Shown here: in pieces, positions 1-31,038 of the stretch
Layout of the letters: each line of letters begins with the position of its first letter
How positions within the stretch are numbered: the stretch's first letter is position 1
Assembly: GCA_028641055.1 (NCBI GenBank)
Contig: CM054062.1
Span: forward strand, 21,460,536-21,524,535
DNA from: Alopecurus myosuroides
Lineage: Eukaryota > Streptophyta > Magnoliopsida > Poales > Poaceae
Reading direction: 5' to 3'
DNA length: 64,000 nucleotides
Made by a program: the position numbers and the translations under genes
Notes under the pieces: generated by a model
The model's input: the letters and a program-made list of their open reading frames with translations, nothing else
Databases searched by the model: none
Told to the model about the DNA's origin: nothing

Positions 1-405
1 GCCACTTTAGTGCGAGTCACATCGAGCTTAAGTAAGAATAGTCAAGAAATTTTGGCTCCTTTGTCCGGTTATAAGATTGCAGCCGTACTCCTCTTGCGAG
101 TAGTCGGCCCTTATAACTCATAGGCATCAAGGCCGGGCCTTTTGGGTTTGTGACTGTGCTTTTCAAGCAACCAGCCCCCAAGACCTATATATATGCAACA
201 TACTTGATGATACTGATGTACTGGTAGCAGTGAATACTACTTACTTGTGATCGAAGCAAATGTCATAATAAGACTTGATAACCATCTCTTTTACTGGTAC
301 GAAAAAATTTGGGTCAGCAGGCCGCCTCATTAAAAACCTTCCAGTCCCCTTAGGTACCCTGGGTAGGAAAAGAGCGCGTCTGAAACCTGCTGCCTGTTAC
401 ATTGT
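1..405. other. E1 spacer between gag and the convergent aORF
   Basis: There is no coding sequence here. The segment is colinear with 14400-14800 of E5 and, in reverse orientation, with 26690-27120 of E6. It contains an imperfect inverted repeat: arms GTTATAAG near 68-75 and CTTATAAC near 111-118. It also holds the conserved block around 315-385 that directly follows the gag/pol stop in all three elements. Its role is not known; transcripts from the two strands would meet here. Confidence 0.6.
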
Positions 406-3400: not shown

Positions 3401-3946
3401 CAGAACCGGGTTTCCGTTAGCCGCGCCCTGCTGCTGGGCCAATGCCTGAGCCGCCCCGACTGCTGCCGCGGTTGCGTTCTCTTGGTTGAGGTTGGCCGCG
3501 GGAGCCGTGTAGACCGCAACTCGGCGTACGATGCTTGGTGTGAATTCATGTTGTTCTTCTTCGCTGTTATTCTCCTCATACCGGTTCTCCAGCAGATCCC
3601 TGATAGACTTGGTATCATCCTCTCCACCGACCTGGTCACGCGGGGTCCATGCTGGCTCCTCCGGCTGTTCCCCCTTCGTGATGGGTTCTTCTATCTGATC
3701 TGTTGTTCCAATTGATTCTTCTCTATCTGATTGGATATAGGTAGCCTCCCCTGACACAGAATCAGATCCAAAATTGTCAGGGATCGAACCGGAAGTACAT
3801 ACCATACCAATGAAGACGCTGATCCGGCCGATTGTCACGACAGATCCGGATTCGAGGTGATCCGACTCTGGCCCCCAGCCGGAATCGTCCACCATCTTCT
3901 CTCCTTCGTGGTCGACGTAGATCTCGCCTATGACGAGATTCTCCAT
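406..3946 (-). pseudogene. E1 gag-protease, disabled
   Basis: This is a gag and aspartic-protease polyprotein of about 1180 codons, colinear with the intact one in E5. The start is taken at the ATG at 3946-3944, which matches the E5 start. Gag proper covers 3946-1350, including the capsid region around 2350-2050 and a C-X2-H-X8-H-X4-C putative zinc-binding motif near 1580-1530. The protease motif DGGSS follows near 1100-1115, and the frame ends in a short RT remnant (HPDWLADPV) at about 490-515. Breaks: TAA at 2723-2725, where E5 has CAA; TAG at 1346-1348; TAG near 1266; and a frameshift in the T-run at about 1036-1043. Function would be capsid formation and polyprotein processing; this copy cannot make it. 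Confidence 0.85.
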
Positions 3947-3989
3947 GTTCTTCCGAGCTTCTCCCGTGATGTAAACACCTTTGGACGCA

Positions 3990-4008
3990 GGCCCCACGGT
4001 GGGCGCCA
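3990..4008 (-). other. E1 primer-binding site
   Basis: The minus-strand sequence TGGCGCCCACCGTGGGGCC lies two bases inside the 5' LTR end. The same 19-mer is found in E5 and E6, at the position where a tRNA 3' end primes minus-strand synthesis. I do not assign the tRNA. Confidence 0.8.
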
Positions 4009-4010
4009 AC

Positions 4011-4487
4011 TGTCGTGGGATAATCACGGCAGACGTTACCGGGGGTAACTGATCTTGGGGCAAGACGACACAGGCATTTGGGAGAGGGTTTAGCTCAGAG
4101 GAAAACATGATGGTAATCGATCTGGTAGCCGGCCATCAAAGTCGCCGAGTCTCCGATCTTAATATAATAACTCAACTCTCGGGTTACACTGGATGCTCGA
4201 TTTCAAGCAATATTGCTAGGGTTCTTAGATCTCCCCAAACTAGACGTAGGGGTCGGTTTATAAAGCACCGTACCCTCCTGACTTGCCCTCCAAGGCGCAC
4301 TCTGAATCCTACCCGGACACTGCTTACATACCCTAGCTTTCTTTACCGCAACCCACAATCCGGGTTACGAGGCCTGCAAACTTTGGGCCTTCCAGAAGTT
4401 TCATTATCCTTAGCCGGATCCTGCGCCGTGTCCCTTGGGCCGGGTTACACCTTGGAGTTGGCCTACCGGGTTATTATCCCTCCATCA
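4011..4487 (-). repeat. E1 5' LTR
   Basis: A 477-bp LTR starting TGATGGAGGG and ending CCCACGACA on the minus strand, so it has TG...CA ends. It is related to the E5 LTR (476 bp) and E6 LTR (463 bp) but clearly diverged from both. The pairing LTR is outside the window. Confidence 0.85.
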
Positions 4488-4640
4488 GTCGGGGTAACAA
4501 TTTCAGAGGAAATCAAATTTTCTGACCAAACAGCCTTGCACAGGCCCAACAGGCTCTGAAAGGACCATGCCTCTGACACAGCAAAAATGGAAAGTTAGCA
4601 AATCATTCTTGGGAAAATTGTTTCATCATGTAGGGTTTAA
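4488..4640. other. Unassigned junction between E1 and E2
   Basis: This is about 150 bp between the E1 LTR and the first recognisable gag sequence of E2. I see no ORF, repeat or motif in it. It could be decayed E2 gag. Confidence 0.4.
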
Positions 4641-6193
4641 GACCTAGTGGAAATAATAACTACGGACCAGGAGACAATGGAGGTGGCAACCCAGGTAACA
4701 TGGGCGGTGGACATCCGGGACCTAGCAATTCTGGACCTGGAAATCATAATCAGGGTCATCATGGTCAGGGTAACTAGGGAACTAACCAAGGTGCCAGTCA
4801 CGAAGGAGGAAATTCTGATTTTTAAACAAATCCGAAGCAATTAAGCTCCGACCAATATCATGTATTTACTACCAGTTCAATTAGGAGAGAATGAAAGGTG
4901 CAGAAGCGTGTAGTCAACACAGTATCTCCTGCTGTCCCTAGGTGGCTCAATTGGTCAGAACAACCCATAAATTGGAGTCGGGCAGATCATCCTCCACGAG
5001 TAGATACCAAGAGGTGTGGCTCTAGTTGTGGATCCACAAGTTGGAGAATATAAATTAGACAAAGTGTTGATGGATGGAGGAAGCAGTATAAACATACTTT
5101 ACTATGATACATTCAAGAGGATGAACCTGCAAGAGAAACAACTTCAGCCATCATCAACTGTTTTCATGGGATCGACGTCTCAAAGAAGCAGCTGATGCAT
5201 TGTCTCGTCTAGGTTCCCGGGAAAAAAAGTTCCACCCAACGTGTTTCTGGATGAAATTCATAGCCCGTCAGTTAAAATTCCAACAGAGGAAGACCTGGCA
5301 AACCCAGATCCGGAGTCAGAATTGGTAGCCGCCCTGCGTACAATCCCAGAGTGGACTGAACCATACCCGGCGTATCTTATGAGGGGTGAGCTCCCGCAGG
5401 ACGAGGTTATCGCTCGTCGGGTTATAAGAAGGTCGAAGTCATGTACGATTATCAATGGTGACTTATATAAGCGAAGCGCGACTGGAATCTTTTAGAGATG
5501 TGTCTCTCCGGAAAAAGGGTGTCAGATTTTAAAAGAAATCCACTCAAGAGATTGCGGCCACCATGCAAGTTCCAGAACTTTGGTCAATAAGGCTTTCAGA
5601 AATGGAGTTTTCTGGTTAACTGCATATGCTGATAAAGAACAAATAGTAAGAACGTGCGAAGGATGTCAGAGATATGCAAGGCAGGATCACATGCCAGCTC
5701 AGGATCAGCGCATGATTCCCATAACTTGGCCTTTTGCAGTCTAGGGGCTTGACATGATAGGACCTTTCAAAAATTCGTATGATAAGAAGACTCATCTATT
5801 GGTGGCAGTTGACAAGTTTACAAAGTGGGTAGAAGCAGAACCAAACTGTAAATGTGAAGCGGTTACAATAGTCAAGTTCTTAAAAAAGCTGATTTTCAGA
5901 TTTGGTTACCCACATAGCATTATAACAGACAATGGGACAAATTTTTAAGAGGGAGCAATGCAGATATTTTGTGAACATAACCATATATGGCTTGACCTTG
6001 CTTCAGTGGCACATCCACAGTCTGATAGACTAGCAGGGCGAGCTAACCAGGAATTACTAAAAGGTATCGAACCTAGGCTCCATGTCCCATTAGAAAAAAC
6101 GGCTGGGTGTTGGCTCGAAGAGTTACCTGCTGTTTTATGGAGCATAAGAACTACCCCAAACAGATCAACAGGTTACACACCGTTTTTTCTGGT
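4641..6193 (+). pseudogene. E2: decayed plus-strand Tat gag-pol fragment
   Basis: The order is: a Gly/Asn-rich gag C-terminus (4645-4780); aspartic protease around DGGSS (5073-5090); an abrupt join at about 5170-5180 to the C-terminal end of RNase H (EAADALSRLG); then the integrase zinc-finger region (5440-5690) and integrase core (5745-6190), with both aspartates (LDMIGPF and TDNGTNF) visible. The third catalytic residue is not recognisable; the equivalent site reads DRLAGRAN. RT and most of RNase H, about 2 kb in E6, are deleted. There are many stops, for example TAG at 5493-5495 and TAA at 5946-5948. The right end stops inside integrase and is joined directly to aORF sequence of E3. Its own LTRs are not present. 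Confidence 0.8.
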
Positions 6194-8061
6194 AGTACTG
6201 CTTTGGAGTTCTTCTCCCCCAGAGCCGGGGAACGAGTCCTTCTCACCTCGCACATTTCTAGAGGTATGGGAATTCCGCCTTCCGCCTTCTTCCTTGGAGT
6301 CCTCAGCCATTATAACATCTAGCCTCACAACCTACCACCGAATTCCATTCTTTACCTAGCCGGCTTCCAGGCCCTTTTTGAAGGGTATTTAGGAATAACG
6401 CCTAGATTAGATTTCTGGTAGTATTGCTTTGGAATCAAGCGAAACCCCGCAGAGTGCGCTCTTCCAACTTGTGGAACCATATCTTTCACCCTGCGTAGAT
6501 TCAGGGAAGATTGGTTCCCGAAGATAAAAACGTCGGAATCCGTCAAATTCTGGACGGTTTCCTTTTTCTATCATCAAGATATCCCATTTCCTGGAAAGGA
6601 AACCGGGGTTTCACCATTTGTCAATGCCGCCGCTACTCCCCAAGATAACTGGGCTGCAGAAGCAACGCATACCTTGCCAGACGATTTGATGAAAATCAAA
6701 CAGCGCATCGCCAAGCTCACCTCCTCAAAACATCCTCTTACCGGAACCGACACAGTATTGTGCTGGTTCAGAAGACGGATTCAACCTCTTGCGCATCGAA
6801 CCCGGCTTCTATGCGAATACAATGGTCTAGAAGACAAGATGAGGGGAACGGAGAAGGCTTTCACGAAAAGGGACTTCAAAAAGCGGGTCAATCTTTTGGT
6901 TGCCACTCCCGACCAGTATGAAGAAAGTCGAGAGATGTATCATGAAGGGAACAAGATTCCAAAGGTATGTTCTTTTCTCTTTGGACAATTTTCTCGGATT
7001 TTTGTCTTTCTCTGTTTTCTTAACTTAGTCGGATATTTGGCCATTTCCATAGTTCGATGACCTCACGGAAAAGGATCTTGCAACTGACACTGAACTTGAC
7101 GAAGTGCACGCCAAGTTTTACGGTGGTCGGAAGCGTAAGAGGCCGACAACCACTGAAGAGGTGGTGGATCTTGACGGCGTTCCCGTCGCTACATCCAGGT
7201 AATTCTCTGGGTATTTCGTACCTTTGCCTGATTTTTGTTGCATAAGCTGTTTTGGTTTCTCGGAATATTGATTTCTCGGTTTTCCTTCTTCCTCCTTTCC
7301 CCTTCAGCCTTGCTCCAACCTCTTTAAAATCGAAGAAGCTGAAGAAGCATAAGGCCACTATCGGCAAGGGGGAGCCATCTCCTGCTGCATCTCCCTCTAC
7401 CCCTGTCACTCTTAGGGGAGAAGATCAGTCTGCAAAGCCAGTGGAATACCCACTGCCGACCAGCCAGCCCATTGCATCCGAGATGGATGCGAGGGAAAGG
7501 GCGGAGCCGGATATGGGCGGTCCTTCTCGTACACCTGAGAAGGAACCCATTCCTACTTTTAATAGAGAATTCAAGGTAACGGAAGAACCATTTGACGAAC
7601 TCGGATATATTCGTCCATGGGCTACCAAGTCCTTCGCTCCTGCTCCTCTGATCCGACCTTGGCCGCAAGGCGGACTAATTGTAAGGAATAACTTCGTATT
7701 TTCACCTCAGCAGGTCATCCAGGACGGCCCTCACCATGTTGGGATTCTTTTTGCAGAGTATGCAAAAGAATTCAACGAAAACTTGTTAGATTTGCAACGA
7801 ATGAGCCAGGTAATATCTCTAGCCCCCAAGCAATAAGTCAAATGCATTCTTTTGCCTTAATGCATTTTTCACTTTTATGCTTGTTTTTAACTTAAGCATT
7901 TTTGTCTCCTTTCCGTGTTTCAGCAAACTGCTGAGAACATCAACATGGAGGTTTTCCACAAACTTACCATCAAGAACAAGGAGGTGAAATCCCTTCTTTT
8001 GATTCTTGAGGGTAAGGAGGCAGAACTGGCATCCACTCAGCAGCAGCTGAAGGAATCAGCA
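6194..8061 (+). pseudogene. E3 aORF (plant gypsy-type additional ORF), truncated at both ends
   Basis: This is a spliced plus-strand gene opposite to E3 gag-pol. The N-terminal domain (6200-6650; GMGIPPSAFFLGVLSHYNI) resembles the 'putative gypsy type transposon' domain of the PF04195 kind. Exons, joined by GT-AG and in frame: to 6964; 7053-7199 (acidic); 7308-7809 (Lys/Pro-rich, then a folded-looking segment); 7924 onward (coiled-coil-like, rich in Lys, Glu, Gln). One visible stop (TAG at 6358-6360) and a frame change near 6320 interrupt the first exon. The 5' end is lost at the E2 junction and the 3' end at E4. The molecular function of this protein class is not established. Confidence 0.7.
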
Positions 8062-8882: not shown

Positions 8883-8887
8883 GCTGG
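8883..8887. other. E5 target-site duplication, left
   Basis: GCTGG directly precedes the E5 LTR. The same five bases follow the other LTR at 18874-18878. Confidence 0.95.
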
Positions 8888-9363
8888 TGTCGTGGGATAA
8901 TCACGGCAGATGTTACCAAGGGTAACTGATCTTGGGGCAAGTCGACACAGGCGTTCGGGAGAGGGTTTAGCTCAAGGGAAGACATGGTATAACTTGATCT
9001 GACAGCCGGTAATCGAAGTCGCCGGATCTCTATTCTCGATACAATAACCCGATTAGGGTTTACACTGGATACTTGATACCACACGATATTGCTAGGGCTC
9101 TTAGATCTCTCTCTCAATCTATACCCGGGGGTCGGTTTATATAGTACCCGTACCCCCTAACTTACTTTACAAGGCACACCCGGGTCCTACCCATACACGG
9201 CGTGCTAACCCTAATTTTCCTTTACAATATCCATAATCCGGGCCATTAGGCCCACGAGCCTGGGCCTCCTCGAACATCTCTACCACAGCCGGATCCTGTA
9301 TACCATCCTTTGGGCCGGGTTATCCCCCGGAGCCTGGCATACCGGGTTAGCATCCCCCCGTCA
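8888..9363 (-). repeat. E5 3' LTR
   Basis: 476 bp, minus-strand ends TGACGGGG and CCCACGACA. It is identical to 18398-18873 except for one base. A TATATAAA box lies on the minus strand at 9136-9143. Confidence 0.95.
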
Positions 9364-9380
9364 GTAGTCCCCAGAATAGC
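9364..9380 (-). other. E5 polypurine tract
   Basis: The minus-strand 17-mer GCTATTCTGGGGACTAC abuts the 3' LTR. E6 has the identical 17-mer at 32011-32027. This is the plus-strand priming site. Confidence 0.85.
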
Positions 9381-9747
9381 CTGGGCTTCACGGATCTCCT
9401 TGAAGCGCTTGCTATTCCTGAAAAGATATCAATCACACGGGCACATGGAAACCGGGTTAAGATGTTTCAACATTCAGCTAGGCCTTGCTCCTTGGTGGCC
9501 ATGCGATAATTCAGGTTTCTCCCTCCAAACACCTTGGTTCAAACTTCTGGGTCCAAATCATAGTAGCAACGCCAAGATCCTATGCTTGACAGTTAACCCC
9601 ATCATCGCGGGACAAATCCCCTTCTTTCTTTATCCGGATGCTTTACTCAATACTGGGCGCATATCTCGCAGGAACTTTAAATAAATAGCCGTTTTACCCC
9701 CACAATTCCCGGCCTCCACTCACCGAACCGGGCTTATCCAGTCGCAC

Positions 9748-10533
9748 TATAAAAAAGCTCCTTAGGAGTGACTCGAACCCTAACGGCTCGTTTCCCCCAC
9801 TCCATTTCTTTCTCCCCTTGAGCTCTCTTTCTTCCTGAGCGCCACCACGGACCTTCCACGCACGTCACCGGAACCCATTGCCCGAAGGCTACGCTCCGCC
9901 ACCGGTCACTCCGCGCCGCCGCCAAGATCCGCCGGCAAATTCTCATCCGGCCCACCAAGAACCGCGAAAGGACACCAGGCCTGCGCCATCTGCCTCCGCA
10001 AGGCCTCCCTCGGATCTCCTCCGGTAAGCCTTTTGCGTTCATCAACTTTCCCTCGCAACCTCTGATTTTTTTCCTCAGATTAGATCTAGATCCGTCCGCC
10101 TCAGATTTCTTGGCTAGACCGGATTAGGCTACCCATAGTCTCTTTTAGTTCGCACAAAGTACAAAGCACATACTCCAACCAACTCGCCTACTGCCCACAA
10201 TCATTACCCTCGCCACAAATTTGAAAATAAAACTTCCAATCTAAGCTCGTACTGCCCAAGATTTCCGCCTCTGCATCAATCACTCGGCTGGACTGCTTCT
10301 TTTTAATCCCCTTTATTCACGTTTGGCGCTTAAGCCACTGCCCATTGTTTTCAAAAGGCTTCTTTACCATTTAGACCCCATAAATTTCTCCATAATACGC
10401 GATACCCGGAACTTCCGAGCTTGATTCTACGAGCTAACACCCGGATCTCCTGCCATACCTCAATACCATCCAGCTGATACTTGATCGTTTCGTAACTTCC
10501 ATGTCTTAATCTTCTTCTTATTTGGTGCCTTGC
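9748..10533 (+). promoter_or_regulatory. E5 aORF promoter region, 5' leader and leader intron
   Basis: TATAAAAAA at 9748-9756 is followed by a CT-rich leader. A likely splice donor (CCG before GTAAGCC) lies at 10023/10024 and an acceptor (CCTTGCAG) ends at 10533, giving a leader intron of about 510 bp. The aORF start codon follows 11 bases later. E6 has the same arrangement on its minus strand: TATA box at 31633-31640 and donor near 31364. The transcription start is not visible from sequence; this is inference from motif spacing and from the conserved arrangement. Confidence 0.6.
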
Positions 10534-10544
10534 AGGTCAACCAC

Positions 10545-13500
10545 ATGGCTCCCAAGAAACAGGTGAAAACCCCAACCAAGGCTAAAGCCACCAACACCAT
10601 TTCCGCCAACTGGGGGCGGTCTATGGTCACGAAGGCCAAGTTGGAGGAGCTAGTGGAGCTGGGAGTTCTCCCTCCTCAGGAGAATATCCAATGGAGGGTG
10701 CCGGGTAAGGAGACCCGGCCCACCCCTACAAAAGACGAGGTAATCTGCTTCGTGGAACATGTGACCCGGGGTTTTCGCCCACCCGGTCATCCTTTTTTCC
10801 GTGACATTCTTAGTCACTATGGCCTTCGCGTCTTCGACATCGGGCCCAATTCCGTGCTAAATATTACCCACTTTATTGTCCTTTCTGAATCCTATCTATG
10901 CACTCCACCAAACCTAGCTCTTTTTATCGAGCTTTATCAATGCAAACCATGCCGCGAAAGCGGTGATGGGGCGCTTCTCACTTGCGGCGGGGTTTCGATC
11001 CAGCGCCGCAAGAACTCTCTGATGCCATCCCTCACCCTTAATTCTCATGTCAAACACTGGCAGCTTTCTTATTTCTACTGCCAGGACACTTCCCCATCCG
11101 GCCAAAAGAAACTGCCGGGTTATTCTGATGGTCTTCTTGACATCTCTGATAAATTTAGTGCCTTTGCCCCTGACTCAGATAGGGAGGCAATCCAACCTCT
11201 GCTAGCCAAACTCGCCACTCTTAGAGCCCAGGGCCTCATTGGGCTCAACCTAGTGAAGACCTGGGTCGACTTCAGAATTCAACCCAACTCCATCCGCACA
11301 AAGCTGATGTGCGAGTATTCTGGGGAACCTTCTGATCCACTACGATACTCTGACAACATCTTCGCAGCCGGCGACACTCTCAAGACCATCAAGGGTTTTC
11401 TTACGGAAAAGCTCGAGGTAATCCGGAACATATCCGGGTTAGAGCCCTTCACACTTGAAAACCCGGCCCCCCAGGTAAAAACCCGACTCTGACGCCTTTA
11501 CTTTCGCTCTTTCCACTTGATGCAACTGATAACCCGTACTTTAACGCCTTTCAGGATGATGACGACTTTTGGAACACCAATACCCCCCCTAGCTCCGAAG
11601 GTCCAGAGGAGCAAGAAGCTGTTCACTCAGACGAAGGTACTCTTTGAGTTTTACTTGATTCGTTTGGACTCACCGTAACCCCTTTATTTCCAACCGTAAT
11701 CTTGATGACATTCAGAACAAGAAGATGACGAGGAAGAAGATTCGGACGGCAAGGTAGAATCCGCCAGTGATGAGGAAGAACCGGAGCCGGCAACCAAAGC
11801 CGGATCTAAAAGAAAAGCTCAAGGAGCCACCTCCAAGGTTTCATCCCCCTTCACACATTCAATTTGTATTACCGTAATGATATTCTTGAACCTTTCTTGA
11901 CGTTATTCCACTGGTCAATCTTGAAGGGGTCGCCCATGCCTAAGCGCAGGTCGACTCGAAATCACCCGGGTAACGACGCCCTTAACCCGGGTTCTTCACC
12001 GCTCCCCACTCGGCAAGCTGGTACTTGCTCTATCTTTTCTTGGTTAGCACGGTTTCCTCGAAGCATTCTCGCATAATATTTAACTTGACATTTTCCAGCC
12101 TCCCCCGGGTCTGACGATGGATTTCCTTGTGACTTTGCGGTGAATGCCGGGTAAAATCCCCTTCCAGATACTTTCCGGTACTTCGTCATCTTTTCCTGAC
12201 TGCATATTTAGCTGCTTTGTGATAACATCTACAGGGCCACGGTCGTTGTCAGCGATCAAGAGGATTCGGAAGATAAGGGCCCGGGTAAGGGGAACCCGGC
12301 TGATAAAACTGCAACCGCGTCTGGCGATGAAGAACAAACATCGCCGACTAAACCGGACCAGCAGGAAACCGAATATCCAATTGCTTCTCATGCCAGCAAG
12401 AGAAAGACCACCGCCTTAGGTGCAGAAGGAGTGTCGGATTCCAACGTGCAAATGACCCGGGTTCCACCTCCTTCTAAGAAGAAAACCTCTTCTAGGAAAT
12501 TCCAAGGACCCGGGTCTTCTGACACGAATAAAGATACTTTCGAACAATTGATGGACAAGCTTCTCACCATGAAGGCTTCGGAGAGCGAGACTTTAGAGCG
12601 CATGGCTGCAGAGCACCAGGTAAGAGCGCTTGTTATCTTATATTCCCTATCTAGTCCCCAAGTTCCGAGTATAACTTGCAAAAGTTATGCTTGGTACTTC
12701 TCACCATATTTTTCTTGCCATAACACTCAGCTGGTTCTTGCACCCTTTTACACTTACAGGCACAGGTAACTCGGTCTGATGAAACCTTGCTGAAGACTGA
12801 ACAGCTCCTTCTTGCCGAGATAAAACGACGAGAAATCCTTGAGGGTAATATGAAAACTTTGAAGAAGGATGTCTCCAAATACAAGGAGAAGTGCCTCGCC
12901 GCTCAGGCCGATTTGAAGAAGTTATCGGATCAAGTCTCCGATACTTATCAGATCTTACTTAGTAAGTGTTTGCCTGCCGACTAAGTTTTTGCCTGCCGCC
13001 TAATTTTTGCCTGCCGACTAATTTCATACCCGGCTGCTACTGATATGTTCTTGCTTCTGTTTCCACTATAGGTGCGAACCTTGCAGCTCCAGAGGAAGAT
13101 GCTATTGTCAAGGTTAGGACCCTGAAGACTGTGCTCCGGACTTTCTTTGCCGGCACAAAATTTATATTGAATGCCATTAATTGGCCCACGGAAGCCTATC
13201 CGGGTGAAGAGAACCTTGTCCAAGCCTGCTCCACTGTACCCGGCTGGATTGAACTCTGGAAGCGTTCGTCCTGCCGTACTGGTATAGTGCGGGCTTTGAC
13301 CTTGGCCAAAGCCTACTTTCCGAAGCTTGACCCGGCGAAGATAATCTCCGGGTTTCCTGAGTTCAAGGCGGATGGCGCCAAATTTACGCCTAAGGATTTC
13401 AAGGCCATTCAGTCGGCAGTGCGCCCCTCTACCACCACTCTAGCCGATAGCTTGAACCTTAATACACTAATGACTGCGTATGACGCTGATGACAAGATTA

Positions 13501-13739
13501 TCACAGAGGAAGCACCCCCGCCCTTTGACCTCTTGGAGAAGTGGGCTGATTACTCAGCTAAGAAGAAGGAGGCAACTGCGAAGAGGGAGGCCGACTTAAA
13601 ATCAGGGCCATCCGCCTCTACACCGTCCGTCCTTCCTCCTATCCGCCCTGGCGCGGTGAGTCCGGGTGGCTCTGCCAAAAAAGCTAAGAAGCAGGTACAT
13701 GAGCAAGACCCGGAAGATCGCGCTCAGGAGGCCGAGTAG
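10545..13739 (+). CDS. E5 aORF: intact eight-exon additional ORF, PF04195-type
   Basis: Exons by GT-AG borders: 10545-11474, 11555-11636, 11716-11837, 11927-12020, 12099-12150, 12235-12619, 12760-12961, 13072-13739. The lengths sum to 2,535 bases, exactly divisible by three, and give 844 residues with no internal stop. Residues 1-310 hold the N-terminal domain of the plant 'putative gypsy type transposon' kind (for example FVEHVTRGFRPPGHPFF). Residues 311-380 are Asp/Glu-rich, 381-520 are Lys/Pro/Ser-rich and disordered-looking, 525-622 look coiled-coil, and 623-844 form a second conserved domain also found in E6 and E7. The start ATG is the first after the leader-intron acceptor. It is transcribed opposite to gag. 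Tat-lineage elements are known to carry extra ORFs; function is unknown. Confidence 0.8.
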
Positions 13740-14802
13740 AGTAAGGATGTCATAATACCTTAGTCACATGGGACCTTTTTGTTTGAGCTATTTTATTCTG
13801 TTAATGGTGCGCCTGTGCACTTCTGATACCGATGCAAAAACTTGTAATATACTTCTATTTGGTGATATATTTTCGCGGCTTTCCCAGCCTTTTGATAATC
13901 GTACTTTTTGCTGTTCTTCTGAACTTGTTCTTGATACCCATCTCTCTTTTTAGCTCCCTTCATAAGACTCGTTTTTTCCGAGACCAGGGGCTTTGATAAG
14001 TGAAATTCCCTTGAAATTCCCAAGACTCGGATGATAGGGCCGTTTTGAACCTTGGTATCAAAGTGGTTTGTTTCTGTTGCGAAGTCCCCAGTCCCCATGA
14101 CCCAAAGGACGAGTCATGGGGGTGTGGCCTTTCTCAGAGGACAAATCATTCCCTACCAAGGCAAAACCCTAAAACCATCTCATGTAAATACTGAAGTTAT
14201 GCTTGATAATCACTGAGTTTCCGGCTTATCAGCCTTGTACTCTGCATAAACTTGTGGTTTAGATGACCCTTTTTACTATCTTATACTATAAGCCGGCTTT
14301 CGCGTGGATACCATGTTGTTACATCTGTATGAAAACAGAGTCAGGCGAGTCCCATTGGGCTTCACGGCTGATTGTAATCATAAGCGAACGAATCATGCCA
14401 CTTTTAGTGCGAGTCACATCGAGCTTAAGTAAGAAAAGTCAAGAAAAGTTGGCTCCTCTGCCCAGTCATAAGATTGCAGCCGTACCCGTTTGCGAGTAGT
14501 CGGCCCTTACAACTTATAGACACCAATGCCGGGTCATTTGGGTTAGCGGCTGGTTACTTGGGCAACCAACCCCCCAAGACCTACATGCACTCGATGCTTT
14601 TGATGATGATACTGAATTACTGATGTCGTATGGATACTACTTACTTGTGATAAAGGCGAAAAGACATAGGACTTGATAACCATCTCTTTATTGATACCAG
14701 AAATTTTGGGTCAGCAGGCCGCCTCATTAAAAACCTTCCAGTCCCCTTAGGTACCCTGGGTAGGAAAAGAGCGCGTCTGAAACCTGCCGCCCGTTACATT
14801 AC
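13740..14802. other. E5 convergent spacer
   Basis: Non-coding stretch where the aORF (plus) and gag (minus) ends meet. Colinear with E1 1-405 and with E6 26573-27800. It contains an AATAAA poly(A)-like signal for the minus strand near 14685-14695 (also present in E6), an imperfect hairpin near 14464-14515, and the post-pol block at 14700-14790. No ORF of note is seen. Confidence 0.6.
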
Positions 14803-17800
14803 TCAGTTCTTTGCAAGCACTGGTCCTGATCCGGCTTGACCAATGCACATCCTCCATAAGTTGGACTTTTTCCTGATGAGTACCGGGTTTGCCAGCCAAC
14901 CCGGGTGGGGTGTCTCCATGACTTTGCTGGTTGTGGGCGGCCGTGTAACTTCTTCCTTTACAGCAGACTGCTTGGAAGAGTCAACTTCGATTAAGGCCAC
15001 CATTTTAGCATCTTGCGTTACCTTGGACTTTGCTTTTTCGCCTTCAGTATTTGGCTTCTTTGATGTAGTTCTGTCCTCCGGGTCTGCTTGAGACCGATAG
15101 TGCTTGAGTTCTTCCTTTCTGCAAGCTTGCTCGGCCATTGCTGCATCTCCTTCGTCGCATTCAGCGGCTATGTCTCGATTTCCGTGTATGGTTATAGTCT
15201 TCTTGGGACCCGGGATTTTTAGCTGTAGATATACATAACACGGCCTAGCCATGAATTTGGCATAAGCCGGCCTTCCAAACAGCGCGTGATAGGGGCTGCG
15301 TAATTTCACTACCTCAAAGGTGAGCCACTCAATTCGATAGTTATCCTTTGATTCTCCGAAAGCTACCTCCAATGCGATTTTTCCCTCGGGGCATGCTGAA
15401 TGACCCGGCACTATTCCATGAAAAACTGTTGAGCTTTTTTGCAGTTGAGATTCCTTGAGACCCATGCGTAGGAAGGTTTCCCAATACAGTATATTGATGC
15501 TGCTTCCACCATCCATTAAAACCTTCTTTAGTTCGTACCCATTAACTTGCGGTGCGACTACTAGTGCCAAGACTCCTGGGTGTTCCACTCTTTCTGGGTG
15601 ATCCCTTCTGCTCCATGTTACCTCTTGTTCTGACCATCTCAAGTATCTCGGAACGGCTAACGAAACTGAGTTGACTGCTTGCTTCAGTATCTTTTTGTCC
15701 TTGTTAGATCCTCCTGTGGTATGCACATGATATTGACCCAATTGTTTGGGGTTAGCCTGGAAGCCTCCTGCCCCCCCTTGGTTATTACCTTGATTTCCAG
15801 CCGCCGGGTTACCAGCTGGGGGTGGGCCGTTGCCCGGGTTTGCCCCTGGACCCGGTCCTCCTCCCCGCCCTGCACCTCGCATAGCTCTGTGCACCTCCTC
15901 ATTTTTCCATCTTTGCAAATCGGCGCATTGTTCTAGGGAGTGGTTAGCTGGCCTGCCATTCCTGCTGTGCTTCGGACATGCCATTCTGAATATGTCCCAA
16001 TTGTTACCCGGCCTTGGTGGACCTTGATAGTTTCCTCCATGGTGGTTACCTCCGTTGAAATTTCCTTCTGCTCTTGGCCTTGAAGACCCGGCTTCGGTGT
16101 TAGCGACAAACTCGGAGCCTCCTTCGAAGGGACGCTTGTTCTGAATATTTCCATTGTTTCCTGACGCTGTTCCGTTGCCGGTTCTTCCATTACCGCTTGT
16201 GTTTGCCTTTGTCTTCTTGTCATCAGCTTCTTCTTCTGTGGTATCTGTCGCAGCGTGTTTGTTGCACGCATCCATCAATTCTCCCATTGTGACTTCTGAC
16301 GCATTTCGGCTGGACTTCATGCGAGTTAACTTTTGCACTAAGGGTATATACTTGCATGTTTTTGCCATGGCTTGTAGTACATCCTTGGGCTGGATGTCTG
16401 TGGATGAGTGAAGTATCTCCATAACCCGGCGCACCCAACTGCGCGCCGATTCTCCCTTCTTTTGGACGCATCGCTCTAGATCATCAATGGTGAATAATTT
16501 CCTGCAGGTCCCGTGAAAGTGCTTGATAAACGCGGTCTTCAATTCCTCCCAAGACTTGATCGATCCCTCTGGTAGATTGGTGAACCACAATTTTGCTGCT
16601 CCTTCAGACATCATCAGATACATGAATTTGGCTTGGAGGTTCTCGGACGCGTTGCGGATTGACATTGCCATCTCGTAACTGCTTAGCCACGTTTCGGGAT
16701 CCATGGTTGGCTCATAATTCACTACTTTCCCTGGCTCTTTAAACTTTTCCGGGTAAGGTTCAGCTCTAATATTGTCCGAGAGACACTTGGGCCCCGCAAG
16801 AATGATTGAAGCCGGCCTTGCCCTGGAAACGTGTGATGCCGCGGGGGGCGCGTCTGGGCGCTGTGCTGCGGGAGGTCCATGCGCTGCAGACCCGGCCGCG
16901 GCCCTCCGAGCCCTAGAACTGTCCACGACGGCCTGTGCTGCTGATACTGCCTGAGCGCGGGGAGGAGGTGGCATTTGCTGCTGCTCTTCCCTCTGCCGCG
17001 CCGAACTCGTTTGTAAATTCCCTTGCTGCTGGCTGACATATGGCGTCCCGTGCATTCCGCTTCTGTGATCCGGGTAATTGGCTTGCTGCGCCACCGCAGT
17101 GTGCAACAGCTCGATGGCTTGCCGAGTCTTCTCTGCATGGGGCGACTCTCCCACAGGTATTTGATTCAAAGCGAGTGTCGCCGCATATACGTTGTCCATA
17201 GGATTGTTGTAGTGGCCGGCTGGCGTGCGGAATCGTGATGGTGGCGGTGGCAGTAGATCGTTGCCGGTTGTGACTCTAGTTTGCGGTGGGGGTAACCCGG
17301 TCCGTTCATTCGCCGGATGTGTCGCTGCTGTTGTCTGTTGGGGTGCGGTTCCCTGGTTCACCACTGGTATCGGTTGGTCCTGAGGCGTGATGAACAAATT
17401 AGCCGGATTAATAACCCCGCCTGTTGCTGGCAACCTGGTGTGGTGCCTTTGATGTATCCTGGACGTTTCCTCTCGAAGCCGGGTTTCCAACGCGTCTAGC
17501 TCGCGCCGTCGGGTGGCCATCCCCTGTCTATCTGCTTCCACTTGCCTTCTTTGCTGTTCCAATGCACGACGCGCCACGTCCAGATCTCTAACACGCTCTG
17601 CCGCGTTTTCTGGGGTGATAACAGTGGCGAGGACTGTAGGATCCAAAATCAAATTATTATCGAACAGGGCCGGGTGACGCGGATTCGAGGGACCCGCCCC
17701 TGGTGTCCGATTGGCTTGAAACCCGAACATGTTGGCGTGTTGCTCCTCATCTGCTGCGCGACTGGTGACCGATGCTGACTCTCCATCGACCCGGGCCAAG

Positions 17801-18333
17801 ACCGGGTCTCCTTTAACCGCGCCCTGTTGCTGGGCCACTGCCTGAGCCGCCCCGACTGGTGCCGCGGCTGTGTTTCCTTGGTTGGCCGCGGGGGCTGCAT
17901 AGACTGCAACTCGGCGCGCGATATCCGGTGTAAATTCAGGCTGTTCCTCCTCACCGTTCTCCTCATACCGGTTTTCCAGTAGATCCAGGATAGACCCGGT
18001 GTCATCTTCTCCTTGGATCCGGTCGCGTGGGGTCCATGCCGGCTCCTCCGGCTGTTCCCACTCCGCGATGGGTTCTTCTGCCGGATATGTCGTTCCCGTT
18101 GATTCTTCATCATCTGATCGGATAGACGTGGCTTTTCCTGGCATAGAATCAGATCCAACGTTGTCAGGGACCGAATTGGAAGCACATACCATACCGATGA
18201 AGACGTTGATCCGACCGATTGTTACGACGGATCCGGTTTCGAGGTGATCCGACTCCGGCCCCCAGCCGGAATCGTCCACCACCTTTTCTCCTTCGTGGTC
18301 GATGTAGATCTCGCCGATGACAAGATTCTCCAT
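14803..18333 (-). CDS. E5 gag-protease polyprotein, intact; pol deleted
   Basis: One open frame of about 1,176 residues from the ATG at 18333-18331. The frame stays open upstream into the LTR, but this is the first ATG after the primer-binding site. Order: acidic leader; Gln-rich central part; capsid-like region about 16,770-16,400 (SWEELKTAFIKHFHGTCRKL); a C-X2-H-X8-H-X4-C putative zinc-binding motif at about 15,975-15,920; a Gly/Asn/Pro-rich tail; aspartic protease with DGGSS at 15502-15516; then an RT remnant (WLANPVLIRKKSN) and 15 unrelated residues. Compared with E6, about 85 residues before the RT remnant are replaced by about 15, and everything after WRMCI to the end of integrase is missing. 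Gag would assemble virus-like particles in the cytoplasm and protease would process it. Confidence 0.9.
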   Translation of the reverse strand: MENLVIGEIYIDHEGEKVVDDSGWGPESDHLETGSVVTIGRINVFIGMVCASNSVPDNVGSDSMPGKATSIRSDDEESTGTTYPAEEPIAEWEQPEEPAWTPRDRIQGEDDTGSILDLLENRYEENGEEEQPEFTPDIARRVAVYAAPAANQGNTAAAPVGAAQAVAQQQGAVKGDPVLARVDGESASVTSRAADEEQHANMFGFQANRTPGAGPSNPRHPALFDNNLILDPTVLATVITPENAAERVRDLDVARRALEQQRRQVEADRQGMATRRRELDALETRLREETSRIHQRHHTRLPATGGVINPANLFITPQDQPIPVVNQGTAPQQTTAATHPANERTGLPPPQTRVTTGNDLLPPPPSRFRTPAGHYNNPMDNVYAATLALNQIPVGESPHAEKTRQAIELLHTAVAQQANYPDHRSGMHGTPYVSQQQGNLQTSSARQREEQQQMPPPPRAQAVSAAQAVVDSSRARRAAAGSAAHGPPAAQRPDAPPAASHVSRARPASIILAGPKCLSDNIRAEPYPEKFKEPGKVVNYEPTMDPETWLSSYEMAMSIRNASENLQAKFMYLMMSEGAAKLWFTNLPEGSIKSWEELKTAFIKHFHGTCRKLFTIDDLERCVQKKGESARSWVRRVMEILHSSTDIQPKDVLQAMAKTCKYIPLVQKLTRMKSSRNASEVTMGELMDACNKHAATDTTEEEADDKKTKANTSGNGRTGNGTASGNNGNIQNKRPFEGGSEFVANTEAGSSRPRAEGNFNGGNHHGGNYQGPPRPGNNWDIFRMACPKHSRNGRPANHSLEQCADLQRWKNEEVHRAMRGAGRGGGPGPGANPGNGPPPAGNPAAGNQGNNQGGAGGFQANPKQLGQYHVHTTGGSNKDKKILKQAVNSVSLAVPRYLRWSEQEVTWSRRDHPERVEHPGVLALVVAPQVNGYELKKVLMDGGSSINILYWETFLRMGLKESQLQKSSTVFHGIVPGHSACPEGKIALEVAFGESKDNYRIEWLTFEVVKLRSPYHALFGRPAYAKFMARPCYVYLQLKIPGPKKTITIHGNRDIAAECDEGDAAMAEQACRKEELKHYRSQADPEDRTTSKKPNTEGEKAKSKVTQDAKMVALIEVDSSKQSAVKEEVTRPPTTSKVMETPHPGWLANPVLIRKKSNLWRMCIGQAGSGPVLAKN

Positions 18334-18376
18334 GCCCTTCCGAGCTTCTCCCGTGATGTAAACACCTTTGGACGCA

Positions 18377-18395
18377 GGCCCCACGGTGGGCGCCA
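18377..18395 (-). other. E5 primer-binding site
   Basis: TGGCGCCCACCGTGGGGCC on the minus strand, two bases from the 5' LTR end; identical in E1 and E6. Confidence 0.85.
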
Positions 18396-18397
18396 AC

Positions 18398-18873
18398 TGT
18401 CGTGGGATAATCACGGCAGATGTTACCAAGGGTAACTGATCTTGGGGCAAGTCGACACAGGCGTTCGGGAGATGGTTTAGCTCAAGGGAAGACATGGTAT
18501 AACTTGATCTGACAGCCGGTAATCGAAGTCGCCGGATCTCTATTCTCGATACAATAACCCGATTAGGGTTTACACTGGATACTTGATACCACACGATATT
18601 GCTAGGGCTCTTAGATCTCTCTCTCAATCTATACCCGGGGGTCGGTTTATATAGTACCCGTACCCCCTAACTTACTTTACAAGGCACACCCGGGTCCTAC
18701 CCATACACGGCGTGCTAACCCTAATTTTCCTTTACAATATCCATAATCCGGGCCATTAGGCCCACGAGCCTGGGCCTCCTCGAACATCTCTACCACAGCC
18801 GGATCCTGTATACCATCCTTTGGGCCGGGTTATCCCCCGGAGCCTGGCATACCGGGTTAGCATCCCCCCGTCA
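18398..18873 (-). repeat. E5 5' LTR with promoter
   Basis: 476 bp with TG...CA ends. On the minus strand TATATAAA (18646-18653) is a likely TATA box for the genomic RNA. One-base difference from the 3' LTR. Confidence 0.95.
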
Positions 18874-19420
18874 GCTGGGTTCCTCCGGGGGCGTGGGGAA
18901 GTAGGAGCGGCGGCGCTGTTCGTGCTCCTGCTGGAACCATACGTTCCAGTTCGGGGAGCTCCGCGCGTAGGCGCGGTCCCTAAGGAGGTGGGCCGGCAGG
19001 AGCGCGCGCCGACAATCTATCTCCTCGCGGGCGCCTTCATTGGTCGGGGGCGGCGGCACCGGGATCCTCTGGGGGCTGAGGTGCCAGCTGTCCGGGAGGT
19101 GGATGTCCGGCCAGAAGACCGGCGTGGCGTGGTCCCAGTGCCACGTCGTCTCCTCCTTCTGCACGTAGCGGCGGAGCCTCTTGCTTGGCGCGGCGCGAGG
19201 CGGCGGGTTGCGCGCTGCCGGAGGTGGTGCGGGGACGCGCGGGCCGCCCCCGATCTGGATGCCGCCCGGTTCGTAGCCGAACGCCTCCTGCGGCGGCGGG
19301 GAACGACGGCGCCTCTCTGGCCAGCGCCGCTGGAGGAGCCGGCCTCGTGCTCATTCTTGGCGCGCTTGAACCAGCAGCGGGGCGACATGGCTAGGGTTCG
19401 TGCTGGGAGCGGGATGTGCG
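18874..19420 (-). pseudogene. E4 internal coding sequence, 5' part
   Basis: GC-rich minus-strand coding-like sequence. A start at about 19389 (MSPRCWFKRAKNEHEAG) leads through an Arg-rich stretch; after frame changes a block about 19164-18874 reads WHWDHATPVFWPDIHLPDSW and ends at the E5 target site. Joined to 8882 and below, the frame continues without a break, so E5 landed inside a coding frame. The protein is not identified. The extreme GC content makes several frames look open, so boundaries are uncertain. The five bases 18874-18878 (GCTGG) are the right-hand E5 target duplication. Confidence 0.5.
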
Positions 19421-19469: not shown

Positions 19470-19932
19470 TGATGGAGGGATGATTACCCGGTAGGCTAAC
19501 ACCAAGGTGAAACCCGGCCCAAAGGTAATCATACAAGACCCGACTCAAGGAAGAGGAGCTTCTAGCAGGCCCAAGAAGGAGCGTAGTCCTTGTAACCCGG
19601 CCCTTGGGGTTACCGTTAGGAAGCTTAGGGTTATGTGCGGTTTCCGGGTAGGATTCCGAGTATGCCTTGTATAGGAAGCCAGGGAGCCGGGTAAGATATA
19701 AGCCGGCTCCTAGGGTTAGAAAAAGGGAGCTTTACCAGATATTCGAGTATCCTTATAACACAAGAGCTGATAGTTGTACCCTAGATTGGAGACTCGGCGA
19801 CTTGATTGCCAGAGCTACCAGATCGATTGATAGCATGATTTCCCCTGAGCTAAACCCTCTCCCAAACACCAGAGTCGAATTGCCCCAAGATAAGTTACCC
19901 CTGGTAACGTCTGCCGTGATTATCCCACGACA
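19470..19932 (+). repeat. E6 5' LTR
   Basis: 463 bp, begins TGATGGAGGG and ends CCCACGACA. Paired with 32028-32491. Confidence 0.95.
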
Positions 19933-19934
19933 GT

Positions 19935-19953
19935 TGGCGCCCACCGTGGGGCC
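19935..19953 (+). other. E6 primer-binding site
   Basis: TGGCGCCCACCGTGGGGCC two bases after the 5' LTR; same sequence as in E1 and E5. Confidence 0.85.
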
Positions 19954-19996
19954 TACGTCAACGGGTGTTTACATCACGGGAGAAGCTCGGGAAAGC

Positions 19997-22700
19997 ATGA
20001 AGAACCTCTTCGTCGGCGAGATCTACACCAACCCCAAAGGAGAGAAGATGGTAGACGACTTTGGTTGGGGACCAGAGTTGGATCTGCTAGAAGCCGTATC
20101 TATAGTCACGATCGGCCGGGTCAACGTCTTCGTCGGCATGGTACGTACGTCCGGTTCAATTCCTGATGATATTGAGTATGATTCTGTGTCAGGAGAAGCG
20201 ACCTGCGTTCAATCGGACGGAGAAGAATCGTTCGGGACGACATATCCGGTAGAAGAGCCCACCACGAAGAGGGAACAGCCGGAGGAGCCGGTATGGACCC
20301 CGCGTGGCCGGGTCAGAAGAGAAGATGATACTGAGTCTATCCTGCACCTGCTGGAAGATCGATACGAGGAGGATAGCTGTGATGAGGAAGAATACGAGTC
20401 TTCGCCAGGCATTGCGCGCCAGGTCGCGGTCTACACAGCCCCTGCAACCAATCTTAATCAGGGAGATGTGACGACGGCCGCGGCTGGAGCGGCGTGAGCG
20501 CTGGCCCAGCAGCAAGTTCCGGCTGATGGAAACCCGGTTATAGCGCGGGTTGACGGAGAGTCGGCTTCAGTCACCAGCCGTACCGGGGAGAGCGAGCGGC
20601 AGAGAAACATGTTTGGGTTTATGGCAGACAGAACACCAGGAGCGGGACCTTCGAATCCGCGAAACCCGGCTCTATTCAACAACAACCTGATCTTAGATCC
20701 CATGGTGCTGGCAACGGTGATAACCCCGGAAAACGCGACAGATCGCGCCCGAGATCTGGATGTAGCTCGCCGTGCGTTGGACCAGCAAAGGAGAGATGTT
20801 GAAGCTGAGAAACAAGGGATAGCCGCGCGCCAGCGCGAGCTGGAAGAGTTGGAGAACCGGCTGCAGGTTCAGTCGACCAGGATTTACAATCAGAGGCACC
20901 AGACGAGATTACCGGCTACAGGTGGAAACCTCCAACCAGCCGCACTGTTTATTACCCCTCAGGATCAACCAATTCCGGCTATGAATCAGGAAACCGGACA
21001 TCAAGCTGCAACCCTGGGAGGACAGCCGGCAAACGTGCAAGCCGGGTTACCCACGTTGCAAACAGGAATCGCCACTGGCAATGCAGCACCACCACCACCA
21101 CCGCCACGATTTCATACTCCACCAGGTCACTTCAGCAACCCCATGGATAACGTGTATGTAGCAACATTGGCACTTGATCGCATCCCCGTAGGAGAGTCAC
21201 CCCATGCAGCGGAGACCCGGCGGGCAGTAGACTTGCTGCGCACGGCAATAGTTCAGCAGGCCAATTACCCGGATAACAGGAGTGGAATGCACGGAACACC
21301 ATATGTAAGCCGGCAGAACGGAAATACCGGCAATATCCAGTCGATTTTGGCGCGGCGGAGGGTAGAGCAGCAGCAAATGCCGCCTCCTCCCCGTAGGCCA
21401 GCAACGCCTGCGGCATCAGCGGCGCAAGCCATTGTGGACAGTTCCCAAGCCAGGCGAGCAGCAGCCGGGTCTGTGGTACGGGGACCGGTAGCGGTTGCGC
21501 CTCACGTCGTACCTGCTGCGGCATCACACGGTTCCCGAGTGAGGCCAGTACAGACAAACCTCGCCGGGCCTAAGTGTTTTTCAGACACCATCAGGGCCGA
21601 GCCTTACCCGGATAAGTTCAAGGAACCGGGTAAGGTGGTTAATTATGAGCCGACCATGGATCCAGAAACCTGGTTGAGCAGTTATGAGATGGCCATGTCG
21701 ATCCGCAACGCATCTGAGAATCTTCAAGCCAAATTCATGTACCTAATGATGTCAGAGGGAGCAGCAAAGTTATGGTTCAATAACCTACCCGAGAAATCCG
21801 TCAATTCATGGGGTGAGCTGGAAACTGCCTTTATCAAGCACTTTCATGGAACATGCAGGAAGTTGTTTACGATTGATGATTTAGAGCGATGTGTCCAGAA
21901 GAAGCGAGAGTCGGCACACAGTTGAGTGGGCCGCGTTATGGAAATTCTCCACTCGTCCACTGATATCCAGCCAAAGGATGCGTTACAAGCTATGGCAAAA
22001 ACATGCAAGTACATACCCTTAGTGCAAAAACTGACACGCCTGAAGTCTAGCCGGCACGCTTCAGAGGTTACAATGGGAGAGTTGATGGACGCATGCAACA
22101 AGCACGCCGCCACAGATACCACAGAGGAGGATGTCGATGATAAGAAAGCAAAAGCCAACGCAGGTAATAATGGAAGACCCGGCAATGGAGCTGCACCGGG
22201 TAATAATGGAGGAAATAATGGAAACAACCAGCACAAGCGCCCATATGAAGGAAACTCCGAGTTTGTCGCCAATACAGAAGCTGGGTTTGCGAGACACAGA
22301 GCTGAGGGAAATTTCAACGGAGGAAACTTCAATGGAGGAAATTATCAAGGACCACCAAGGCCGGCTAATCATATAGAGGCCTTCAGGATGCCCTGTCCGC
22401 GTCATAGCAGGAACGGCAGGTCGGCTAATCATTCATTGGAGCAGTGCGTAGATTTACAGAGATGGAAGAACGAGGAAATACAGAAGGCCATGCGAGGCGC
22501 AGGCCGGGGAGCAGGACCGGGTCCGGGCGGAAACCCGGGCAATGGCCCACCCCCGGCTGGCAACGCATGAGGTGGTAATCCGGGTAACAATCAAGGAGGC
22601 GCTGGAGGTTTCCAAGCCAACCCCAAGCAGCTAGGGCAGTACCACGTCCATACTACGGGGACTTCCAATAAAGATAGAAAGATACTCAAAAGAGCAGTAA
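19997..22700 (+). pseudogene. E6 gag, interrupted by three stops
   Basis: Colinear with E5 gag; start ATG at 19997 by that alignment. Acidic leader (to 20490), Arg/Glu-rich helical part (20700-20910), Pro/Gln-rich segment, capsid-like region (21640-21900), C-X2-H-X8-H-X4-C motif near 22390-22445 and Gly/Asn-rich tail. In-frame TGA stops lie at 20495, 21923 and 22568. At 21923 a Trp codon (TGG in E5) has become TGA. The frame resumes after each stop, so these are point defects rather than rearrangements. Confidence 0.9.
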
Positions 22701-22729
22701 ACTCGGTTTCTTCAGCTGTTCCGAGATAC

Positions 22730-30800: not shown

Positions 30801-31038
30801 GGGTCACGTTTTCGACAAAAACCACCACCTCGTCAAGACCCGGAGTAGGTCGAGTCTCCTCTCCAGGTACCCTCCAGTGGATCTCCTCCCTAGTGGGCAA
30901 AACACCCGACTCTGAAAGCTCGTCAAGCTTAGCTTTTGTAACAGTCCACCTCGCCCAGTTGGCGGAGATCGATTGACTCGGCTTTTGCTTGTTGGCCGGG
31001 TGTTTTCCCTTCAGCTTAGCACTGGCCTTAGGAGCCAT
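27810..31038 (-). pseudogene. E6 aORF, frameshifted
   Basis: Minus-strand counterpart of the E5 aORF. The start at 31038 (MAPKASAKLKGKH) aligns with the E5 start. The N-terminal domain spans 31038-30095, with a frameshift near 30775 (a G-run) and another near 30300. Further exons: about 30010-29920 (acidic), 29735-29400, 29279-28911 (ends EAMAAEHQ, as in E5), a coiled-coil-like exon about 28780-28590 with a TAG near 28750, and the last exon about 28465-27810 with the second conserved domain. Exon order and phases follow E5. The frameshifts make it non-functional. Confidence 0.75.

Follow-up and report, generated by a model that had tools for sequence, protein, structure and literature searches.

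An antisense TRP28 gene model with eight exons in a pol-deleted LTR retrotransposon of Alopecurus myosuroides

Element E5 and its antisense gene

In a 64,000-nucleotide stretch of the Alopecurus myosuroides genome (contig CM054062.1, hereafter the window), an LTR retrotransposon, E5, occupies positions 8888-18873 on the minus strand. E5 is young: its two LTRs (3' LTR 8888-9363, 5' LTR 18398-18873, both minus) form a nearly identical direct repeat with one difference in 477 columns (476 positions), and the TG...CA ends set the inner border of the 3' LTR at 9363. The element is flanked by the 5-bp target site duplication GCTGG (8883-8887 and 18874-18878), the length given for the Retand lineage. 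Duplications of 5 bp are common among plant LTR elements, so GCTGG is not specific to that lineage.

An open reading frame at 14803-18396 (minus) encodes gag (PF03732), the only family in it above the Pfam cut-off, and ends in a short RT stub, recognised from the tail of the frame and its homology to the related element E6. The Pfam search of this frame returned no protease family; a DGGSS-type motif seen by eye marks what I take to be a protease part. The rest of pol after the stub is missing, the DNA matches between E5 and E6 ending at 23413 and restarting at 26682-26804 (window positions within E6). Being without RNase H, integrase and nearly all of RT, E5 is not autonomous. This loss was absent from the preliminary description of the locus.

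On the opposite strand to gag, a frame at 10545-13739 (plus) joins eight exons, 2535 nt in all, into 844 codons and a stop. Exon 1 (10545-11474, residues 1-310) contains a Transposase_28 domain at residues 67-134 (PF04195, E 1.3e-19), exon 2 (11555-11636) an unstable C run at 11583-11589, and exon 4 (11927-12020) the basic cluster PKRRSTR at residues 383-389; exon 3 (11716-11837) is acidic. Exons 5 (12099-12150) and 6 (12235-12619) are followed by exon 7 (12760-12961), which looks coiled-coil-like by eye, and by exon 8 (13072-13739), with a conserved C-terminal part and the stop codon. As first described, all seven introns are bounded by GT-AG, the phases join exactly and the 844 codons are open, which the exon coordinates confirm. 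Taken alone, an open frame with GT-AG borders is weak support; the strong and decisive evidence comes from comparison, by which the predicted eight-exon model is confirmed. Maximum-coding splice threading was rejected as a guide, as it chose weak splice sites and favoured a different, six-exon model on this stretch (threader score 2385 for the real stretch and 2255 for the eight-exon model; 30 dinucleotide shuffles reached at most 1824).

The TATA box and leader intron proposed earlier upstream of the gene are both found. TATAAA at 9748-9753 (plus), 384 nt from the 3' LTR, is the sole such motif in the 1300 nt of internal sequence next to this LTR; the same holds in E6, at 387 nt. The candidate leader intron (about 10024-10535, plus) has a GTAAG donor 660 nt from the 3' LTR (664 nt in E6) and a TTGCAG acceptor directly before the ATG, while the one ATG present in the leader exon of E6 counts against the model. 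The conserved position of the TATA box points to a putative promoter belonging to the gene itself.

The predicted protein reaches 70.6 bits against PF04195 (Transposase_28, TRP28; cut-off 26.2) and is, by its sequence, the TRP28 antisense accessory ORF (aORF-3R) known from the Retand lineage. The earlier view of an unknown kind of gene is thus not borne out, as TRP28 antisense ORFs are described for that lineage (PMC11963269) and Grande gene23 is reported to have a promoter of its own (PMC7264820). Searches with the whole protein and with residues 20-310 found two proteins each, three altogether; residues 540-800 found nothing at E 0.001, and a viral contig scan gave no relative of the protein. 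P0001, a predicted protein of Alopecurus aequalis, gives an alignment that continues across the sites of introns 1, 2 and 7 and matches exon 7; it is without counterparts of exons 4-6 and of part of exon 1, and a gap opens a few residues past intron 2. Structure models of two segments, residues 1-310 and the last 221 residues, built on six-row alignments, were unusable (mean pLDDT 46.8 and 47.7).

Conservation among related elements and copies

E6 (19470-32507, plus; LTRs 95.8% identical) carries RT, two RNase H-type domains and integrase domains in a pol broken by stops, in the Pfam order RVT_1, RT_RNaseH, RVT_3, then Integrase_H2C2 and rve. A second RNase H (aRH) between RNase H and integrase distinguishes the Ogre/Retand group (PMC6317226); RVT_3 of E6 is presumably this domain, found here in E6 only, its region in E5 having been lost with the pol deletion. 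The antisense gene of E6 (27811-31038, minus) was said to follow the same plan, and it does have the same seven introns; the copy has however decayed, with six in-frame stops and several frameshifts. All seven GT and AG pairs align between E5 and E6, the donor of intron 1 with a gap; identity is 61.5% in exons (1524/2478), 52% in introns (327/629) and 40% upstream (313/776). Among three E6-type copies, the acceptor AG is lost in one of 21 introns.

Third codon positions are the fastest evolving in each of the eight exons, with the weakest excess in exon 6. They differ at 474 of 826 sites, versus 272 and 208 differences at the other two positions (chi2 197, p 1.6e-43), whereas introns with carried-over phase show no such pattern (p 0.78). 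The dN/dS of the antisense frame between E5 and E6 is about 0.21 (bootstrap 0.14-0.26), a rough value, as dS is saturated; that of gag is lower (0.088). For the antisense gene, dN/dS falls with distance, from 0.62 at dS 0.09 through 0.26 at dS 0.40 to 0.21 at dS 1.8, as expected from constraint in active lineages combined with neutral decay in dead copies.

The other elements of the preliminary description, E3 and E7, were like E6 identified here by homology. That both terminal domains of the protein recur in all three is borne out for E6; elsewhere the matches are partial and their plan differs from the E5 gene, with an N-terminal-type fragment at 6215-6889 fused to a truncated integrase-type stretch, and a C-terminal-type ORF on the sense strand at 53133-53852 and 41245-41964. 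Of E1 (1-4489, minus), another element sharing the pol deletion of E5, the 5' part lies in the window; it matches 14397-18874 in one alignment of 4506 columns at 83.5% and has the same ORF tail. Between these two pol-deleted elements, the gag ORF has a dN/dS of 0.094 at dS 0.65.

The sample of relatives from the same genome consists of the 20 copies heading the list of exact pattern matches and is thus not random; one truncated fragment (L047) was excluded before counting, leaving 19. GT-AG is kept in 132 of 133 introns. The 357 classified exonic variants, which leave aside one shared stop-codon variant, comprise 149 nonsynonymous, 208 synonymous and no stop changes, where intron rates predict 375, 173 and 20, respectively. 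Relative to expectation, the nonsynonymous/synonymous ratio is 0.45 in exons 2-6 and 0.39 in exons 7-8, again with no stops. Neutral evolution of the frame between copies, named beforehand as what would speak against the gene, is thus not what is observed. Shared and singleton variants do not differ in this ratio (p 0.91), a contrast that is uninformative.

The frame is fully open in only seven of the 19 relatives, with an exonic frameshift in the other 12. The C run in exon 2 counts six instead of seven C in 11 copies, one of which lost a further C nearby while another carries an additional 1-nt deletion in exon 1; one other relative has several indels in exon 1. The loss in the C run could be slippage, assembly error or decay. 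In ten of the short-run copies the substitutions still suggest constraint (84 nonsynonymous and 107 synonymous changes, no stops). For intron 6, the only one tested, the 3.57 Gb genome contains 763 intron-bearing and no spliced borders, in line with the earlier suggestion that the introns survive retrotransposition.

Proposed role and alternatives

I consider it very likely that this is a TRP28 accessory gene of a Retand-type Ty3/gypsy element, with its own TATA promoter, spliced by the host, encoding a nuclear protein and residing in an element that borrows pol. Transcription by host RNA polymerase II would begin at the TATA promoter on the inner side of the 3' LTR and run antisense to the genomic RNA; the host spliceosome would then excise the leader intron and the seven coding introns. 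These would persist through retrotransposition because in the packaged RNA they are present as the reverse complement alone, a form to which splicing is blind. Judging by the literature and by its basic clusters, the 844-aa protein is probably nuclear and would work on the DNA or RNA of the element itself, as a transcription, targeting or import factor. E5, having kept this gene and gag, would depend on autonomous relatives resembling E6 for its RT, RNase H and integrase.

Alternatively, the gene could consist of exon 1 only, as one TRP28 ORF no longer than 335 aa, with the remainder decayed or non-coding and the splice model over-fitted. The ORF-finder survey of the lineage does record single ORFs (PMC11963269), GT-AG threads are easily found and the threader favours other exons. 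However, exons 2-8 each show the third-position excess in the modelled phase, the seven introns are conserved amid 52% background identity, the variants of exons 2-6 and 7-8 are constrained alike, and P0001 spans three exon borders, which leaves this reading quite improbable. I regard a primary role of the antisense unit as RNA, triggering dsRNA/siRNA or interfering with the sense transcript while the protein is secondary, as unlikely: it is suggested in a review for antisense aORFs (PMC7264820) and the unit is convergent with gag, but it is the codons that are selected, while introns and leader show no codon pattern and diverge more.

Host genes, too, have introns and promoters of their own, and the antisense gene may stem from an ancient capture. 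Its recent capture by one element is very hard to sustain, as first-look candidates for TRP28 number 57,073 in this genome (all 150 scored lie above the cut-off), the gene has a homologous position in E5 and E6, and TRP28 is reported from flowering-plant proteins only, with no similarity outside transposable elements (PMC11963269). A once-real gene could also have become a relic, the E5 subfamily spreading without need of it and the constraint being inherited from autonomous ancestors. The frameshifts in 12 of the 19 sampled relatives and the reliance of E5 on other elements for pol favour this; the synonymous bias and lack of stops among variants of the sampled subfamily (pol deletion itself read in E5 and E1), and the low dN/dS of gag between these two, speak against it, and I give it little credence.

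Beyond the accessory-gene explanation itself, I tentatively propose, as a possibility I would not favour, a helper-dependent subfamily that discarded RNase H, integrase and all but a stub of RT, while gag and the complete intron-bearing antisense gene are held under selection. TRP28 would then act in cis, or on the nucleic acid of its own family only, for what the pol of a partner cannot supply, and the antisense introns would restrict the protein to a dedicated nuclear antisense transcript, never the genomic RNA. If the commonest extra gene of the lineage is indeed a multi-exon antisense gene, ORF surveys caught only its longest exons and cut the protein short. The full protein, including the second conserved part at its C-terminus, would be a direct handle on the role of TRP28, and the pol-less subfamily would show, by natural reduction, which functions an element cannot obtain from others.

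Known systems

TRP28 antisense aORFs, as in E5, are known from the Retand lineage (Tat), RIRE2 and Retand included (PMC11963269, PMC6317226), and occur in 97% of recently active Retand clusters, some clusters being without coding domains (PMC11963269). As both the TRP28 family and an own promoter were already reported, neither is new. The Retand survey applied ORF Finder to RT-containing elements only and recorded single ORFs, and the word 'intron' does not occur in its text, whereas E5 has eight exons, conserved introns and only an RT stub. TRP28 antisense genes with introns were not found described in the literature searched, which was covered in part. Within that literature, the same holds for the multi-exon structure and for its retention beside gag in a subfamily that lacks integrase, RNase H and most of RT.

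Grande gene23 of maize, an antisense accessory gene with its own upstream promoter and a nuclear protein (PMC7264820), resembles the E5 gene model by description; the promoter and nuclear product are those reported for gene23. LTR retrotransposons of plants are described as mostly devoid of introns (PMC12786077), Ogre and EVADE being the exceptions (PMC12786077, PMC6317226); E5 resembles these two in containing introns. Their introns, however, lie on the sense strand and serve expression of the sense RNA, while those of E5 are antisense and invisible to sense splicing. Like the GAG-only non-autonomous TR-GAG elements, E5 lost pol and kept gag, but unlike them it also kept the antisense gene and the protease-like part. 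HBZ of HTLV-1 and other retroviral antisense genes (cited in PMC11963269) likewise give a nuclear product from the antisense strand of an LTR element, a likeness for which no homology is claimed; in contrast to the HBZ type, the putative antisense promoter of E5 lies in the internal region and not in the LTR.

The antisense gene of E5 and its counterpart in E6

E5, the LTR retrotransposon that carries the antisense gene, is complete (8888-18873) and flanked on both sides by GCTGG, and its two LTRs (8888-9363 and 18398-18873) differ at a single position. Since gag (14803-18396, PF03732) lies on the minus strand, E5 has a minus-strand genomic RNA, and the LTR at 8888-9363 is the 3' one. The antisense gene (10545-13739) is located between this LTR and gag on the plus strand, opposite to the genomic RNA; its eight exons give 2535 nt, i.e. 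844 codons and a stop, and its seven introns, of 78-140 nt, are all GT-AG. Taken alone this splice model proves little, because GT and AG are ubiquitous and threading for maximum coding length yields a model other than the eight-exon one. The threading score of the real stretch is 2385 versus a maximum of 1824 over 30 dinucleotide shuffles, all of which it beats.

The neighbouring related element E6 lies on the plus strand at 19470-32507, its two LTRs sharing 95.8% identity. It has a homologous antisense gene on the minus strand (31038-27811). In the alignment of the two genes all seven donors and acceptors match up, with a one-base gap after the GT of the intron 1 donor, so that the intact eight-exon GT-AG frame proposed in the preliminary description is borne out: it is open in E5, and its introns are aligned in E6. 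Identity is 61.5% in exons (1524/2478), 52% in introns (327/629) and 40% in the upstream part (313/776). Substitutions at codon positions 1, 2 and 3 number 272, 208 and 474, of 826 each, and the third position is the most substituted in all eight exons, even if the excess is weak in exon 6 (57, 49 and 62 of about 124). Pooled over all exons this bias is pronounced (chi2 197, p 1.6e-43), whereas it is absent from the introns when the exon phase is carried into them (p 0.78). The dN/dS of the antisense gene is 0.21 (bootstrap 0.14-0.26) at a saturated dS of 1.8, and that of the gag ORF in the same pair is 0.088, so the antisense gene evolves faster than gag. Neutral evolution of the frame between copies, for which a dN/dS check had been suggested, is argued against by this 0.21 and by the fastest third position. 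The earlier statement that E6 shows the same plan is only partly correct: all seven intron borders coincide, but the copy is dead, with 6 in-frame stops and several frameshifts.

Despite the low upstream identity, the layout there is kept. Counted inward from the 3' LTR, TATAAA is at 384 nt in E5 and at 387 nt in E6, and GTAAG, the sole one within the first 1300 nt, follows at 660 and 664, respectively, as donor of a leader intron that ends just upstream of the ATG in both elements. Between TATA and this donor there is no ATG in E5 and one in E6. The TATA box and leader intron described previously are thus present in both elements at near-equal offsets, and the region is promoter-like by sequence. 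Downstream of the stop, GTGCGCCTGTGCACTT (13807-13822, plus; 27713-27728, minus) is identical in E5 and E6 where the 3' region has otherwise diverged, and is perhaps a 3'-end signal.

Relatives and introns across the genome

In the window's genome (3.57 Gb, 3,227 contigs), a 30-nt pattern over the exon 6/intron 6 border matches 763 times at ≤3 mismatches, and the reversed control of that pattern has no match in the same search. The first 20 listed were sampled, all exact matches and hence a non-random set biased to close relatives; excluding one truncated fragment leaves 19 relatives, in which GT-AG is kept in 132 of 133 introns. With E5 as a twentieth row, the 357 classified exonic variants comprise 149 nonsynonymous, 208 synonymous and no stops, versus the 375, 173 and 20, respectively, that follow from intron rates when sequence context is ignored. 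The contrast in nonsynonymous to synonymous variants between shared and singleton ones says nothing in this set. For the three E6-type copies, dN/dS is 0.62 at dS 0.09 (E6 vs L077), 0.26 at dS 0.40 (E6 vs L076) and 0.28 at dS 0.38 (L076 vs L077), and about 0.21 against E5; both borders are kept in 20 of their 21 introns. This series fits constraint in active lineages together with decay of dead copies.

A start-to-stop open frame is found in 7 of the 19 relatives. Eleven have six C instead of seven in the exon 2 run at 11583-11589. Among these eleven, one lost another C close by, and a different one carries a second 1-nt deletion, located in exon 1. One further relative shows several indels in exon 1. 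The most distant relative, L053 (94.8% identical), has an open frame and no long C run at this site. As substitutions in the short-run copies still look constrained (84 nonsynonymous, 107 synonymous, no stops, in ten copies with E5 as eleventh row), the loss of the C looks recent, recurrent or technical; a run so often short in an otherwise constrained frame could be a slippage hot spot or an assembly error.

The antisense introns are unrecognisable in the genomic RNA and would thereby be kept through retrotransposition. The exon 6 borders in the genome agree with this, being intron-bearing in 763 cases versus 0 spliced exon 6-7 junctions, which upholds the proposed survival of introns for intron 6, the one counted. 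The lack of spliced exon 6-7 junctions also means that the search did not reveal any processed copy of the antisense mRNA, so direct proof of splicing is not available from the genome. An annotated protein predicted in Alopecurus aequalis (P0001, 506 aa) aligns without gaps where introns 1 and 7 lie; it also spans the site of intron 2, a gap beginning a few residues further on. Exons 4-6 and part of exon 1 have no equivalent in P0001.

A subfamily without pol and other features

Homology between E5 and E6 ends at E6 position 23413 and picks up again at 26682-26804, and the gag ORF of E5 terminates in an RT stub. E6 carries the domains missing from E5, namely RT, two RNase H-type domains, Integrase_H2C2 and rve; stops break its integrase frame, so this copy itself is no working helper. 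E1, at the left end of the window (1-4489), has the same junction as E5, in a single continuous match at 83.5%, and the same ORF tail. Its gag ORF, with 4 stops, gives a dN/dS of 0.094 at dS 0.65 against E5, so the pol-less form is old and gag remained under selection. The main survey in PMC11963269, as outlined there, takes RT sequences as its starting point and so would miss such a subfamily.

Another gypsy-type element has a sense ORF of 240 aa (53133-53852 and 41245-41964, minus), located after the 5' LTR and ahead of gag. This ORF shares about 27% identity with the C-terminal part of the antisense protein and represents the same domain in opposite orientation. The internal regions 34762-42111 and 46641-53999 are 98.7% identical; LTR-like direct repeats (45717-46642, 53998-54923) accompany the right one, and no such repeats turned up beside the left one. 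An open LINE-type frame of 1175 aa (42217-45741, minus; endonuclease, RT, zf-RVT) has its poly-A-like end at 42112, exactly where the left region ends. At 5745-6889 (plus), an integrase-type fragment, identified visually and from its similarity to E6, is fused to a TRP28-type (Transposase_28) fragment of the same orientation; both are truncated where joined, which looks like an aberrant rearrangement. First-look TRP28 candidates in the genome number 57,073, of which 150 were scored; high-scoring matches that have long open frames (L002, L003, L005, L006, L007 and others) cluster at 541.7-543.7 Mb of G000:C1, where they may represent a local array or host genes.

Comparison with known elements

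The protein of the antisense gene contains PF04195, the TRP28 domain, and the gene occupies the position that antisense TRP28 ORFs have in elements of the Retand lineage, where they are reported in 97% of recently active clusters (PMC11963269). The family is therefore already known; its multi-exon structure is, as far as my searches go, undescribed. Structure models of the protein were too poor for use. It would most likely be a nuclear regulator or targeting factor, given its basic clusters (e.g. 383-389), acidic middle and conserved C-terminal part, and the reported nuclear site of the product of Grande gene23, a gene described with its own promoter in PMC7264820. The same review calls for examining antisense and spliced transcripts, and Ogre and EVADE are singled out as notable exceptions with introns in a review of December 2025 (PMC12786077). 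As described for Ogre and Retand in PMC6317226, the RNase H and integrase of E6 are separated by an additional domain of the RNase H type.
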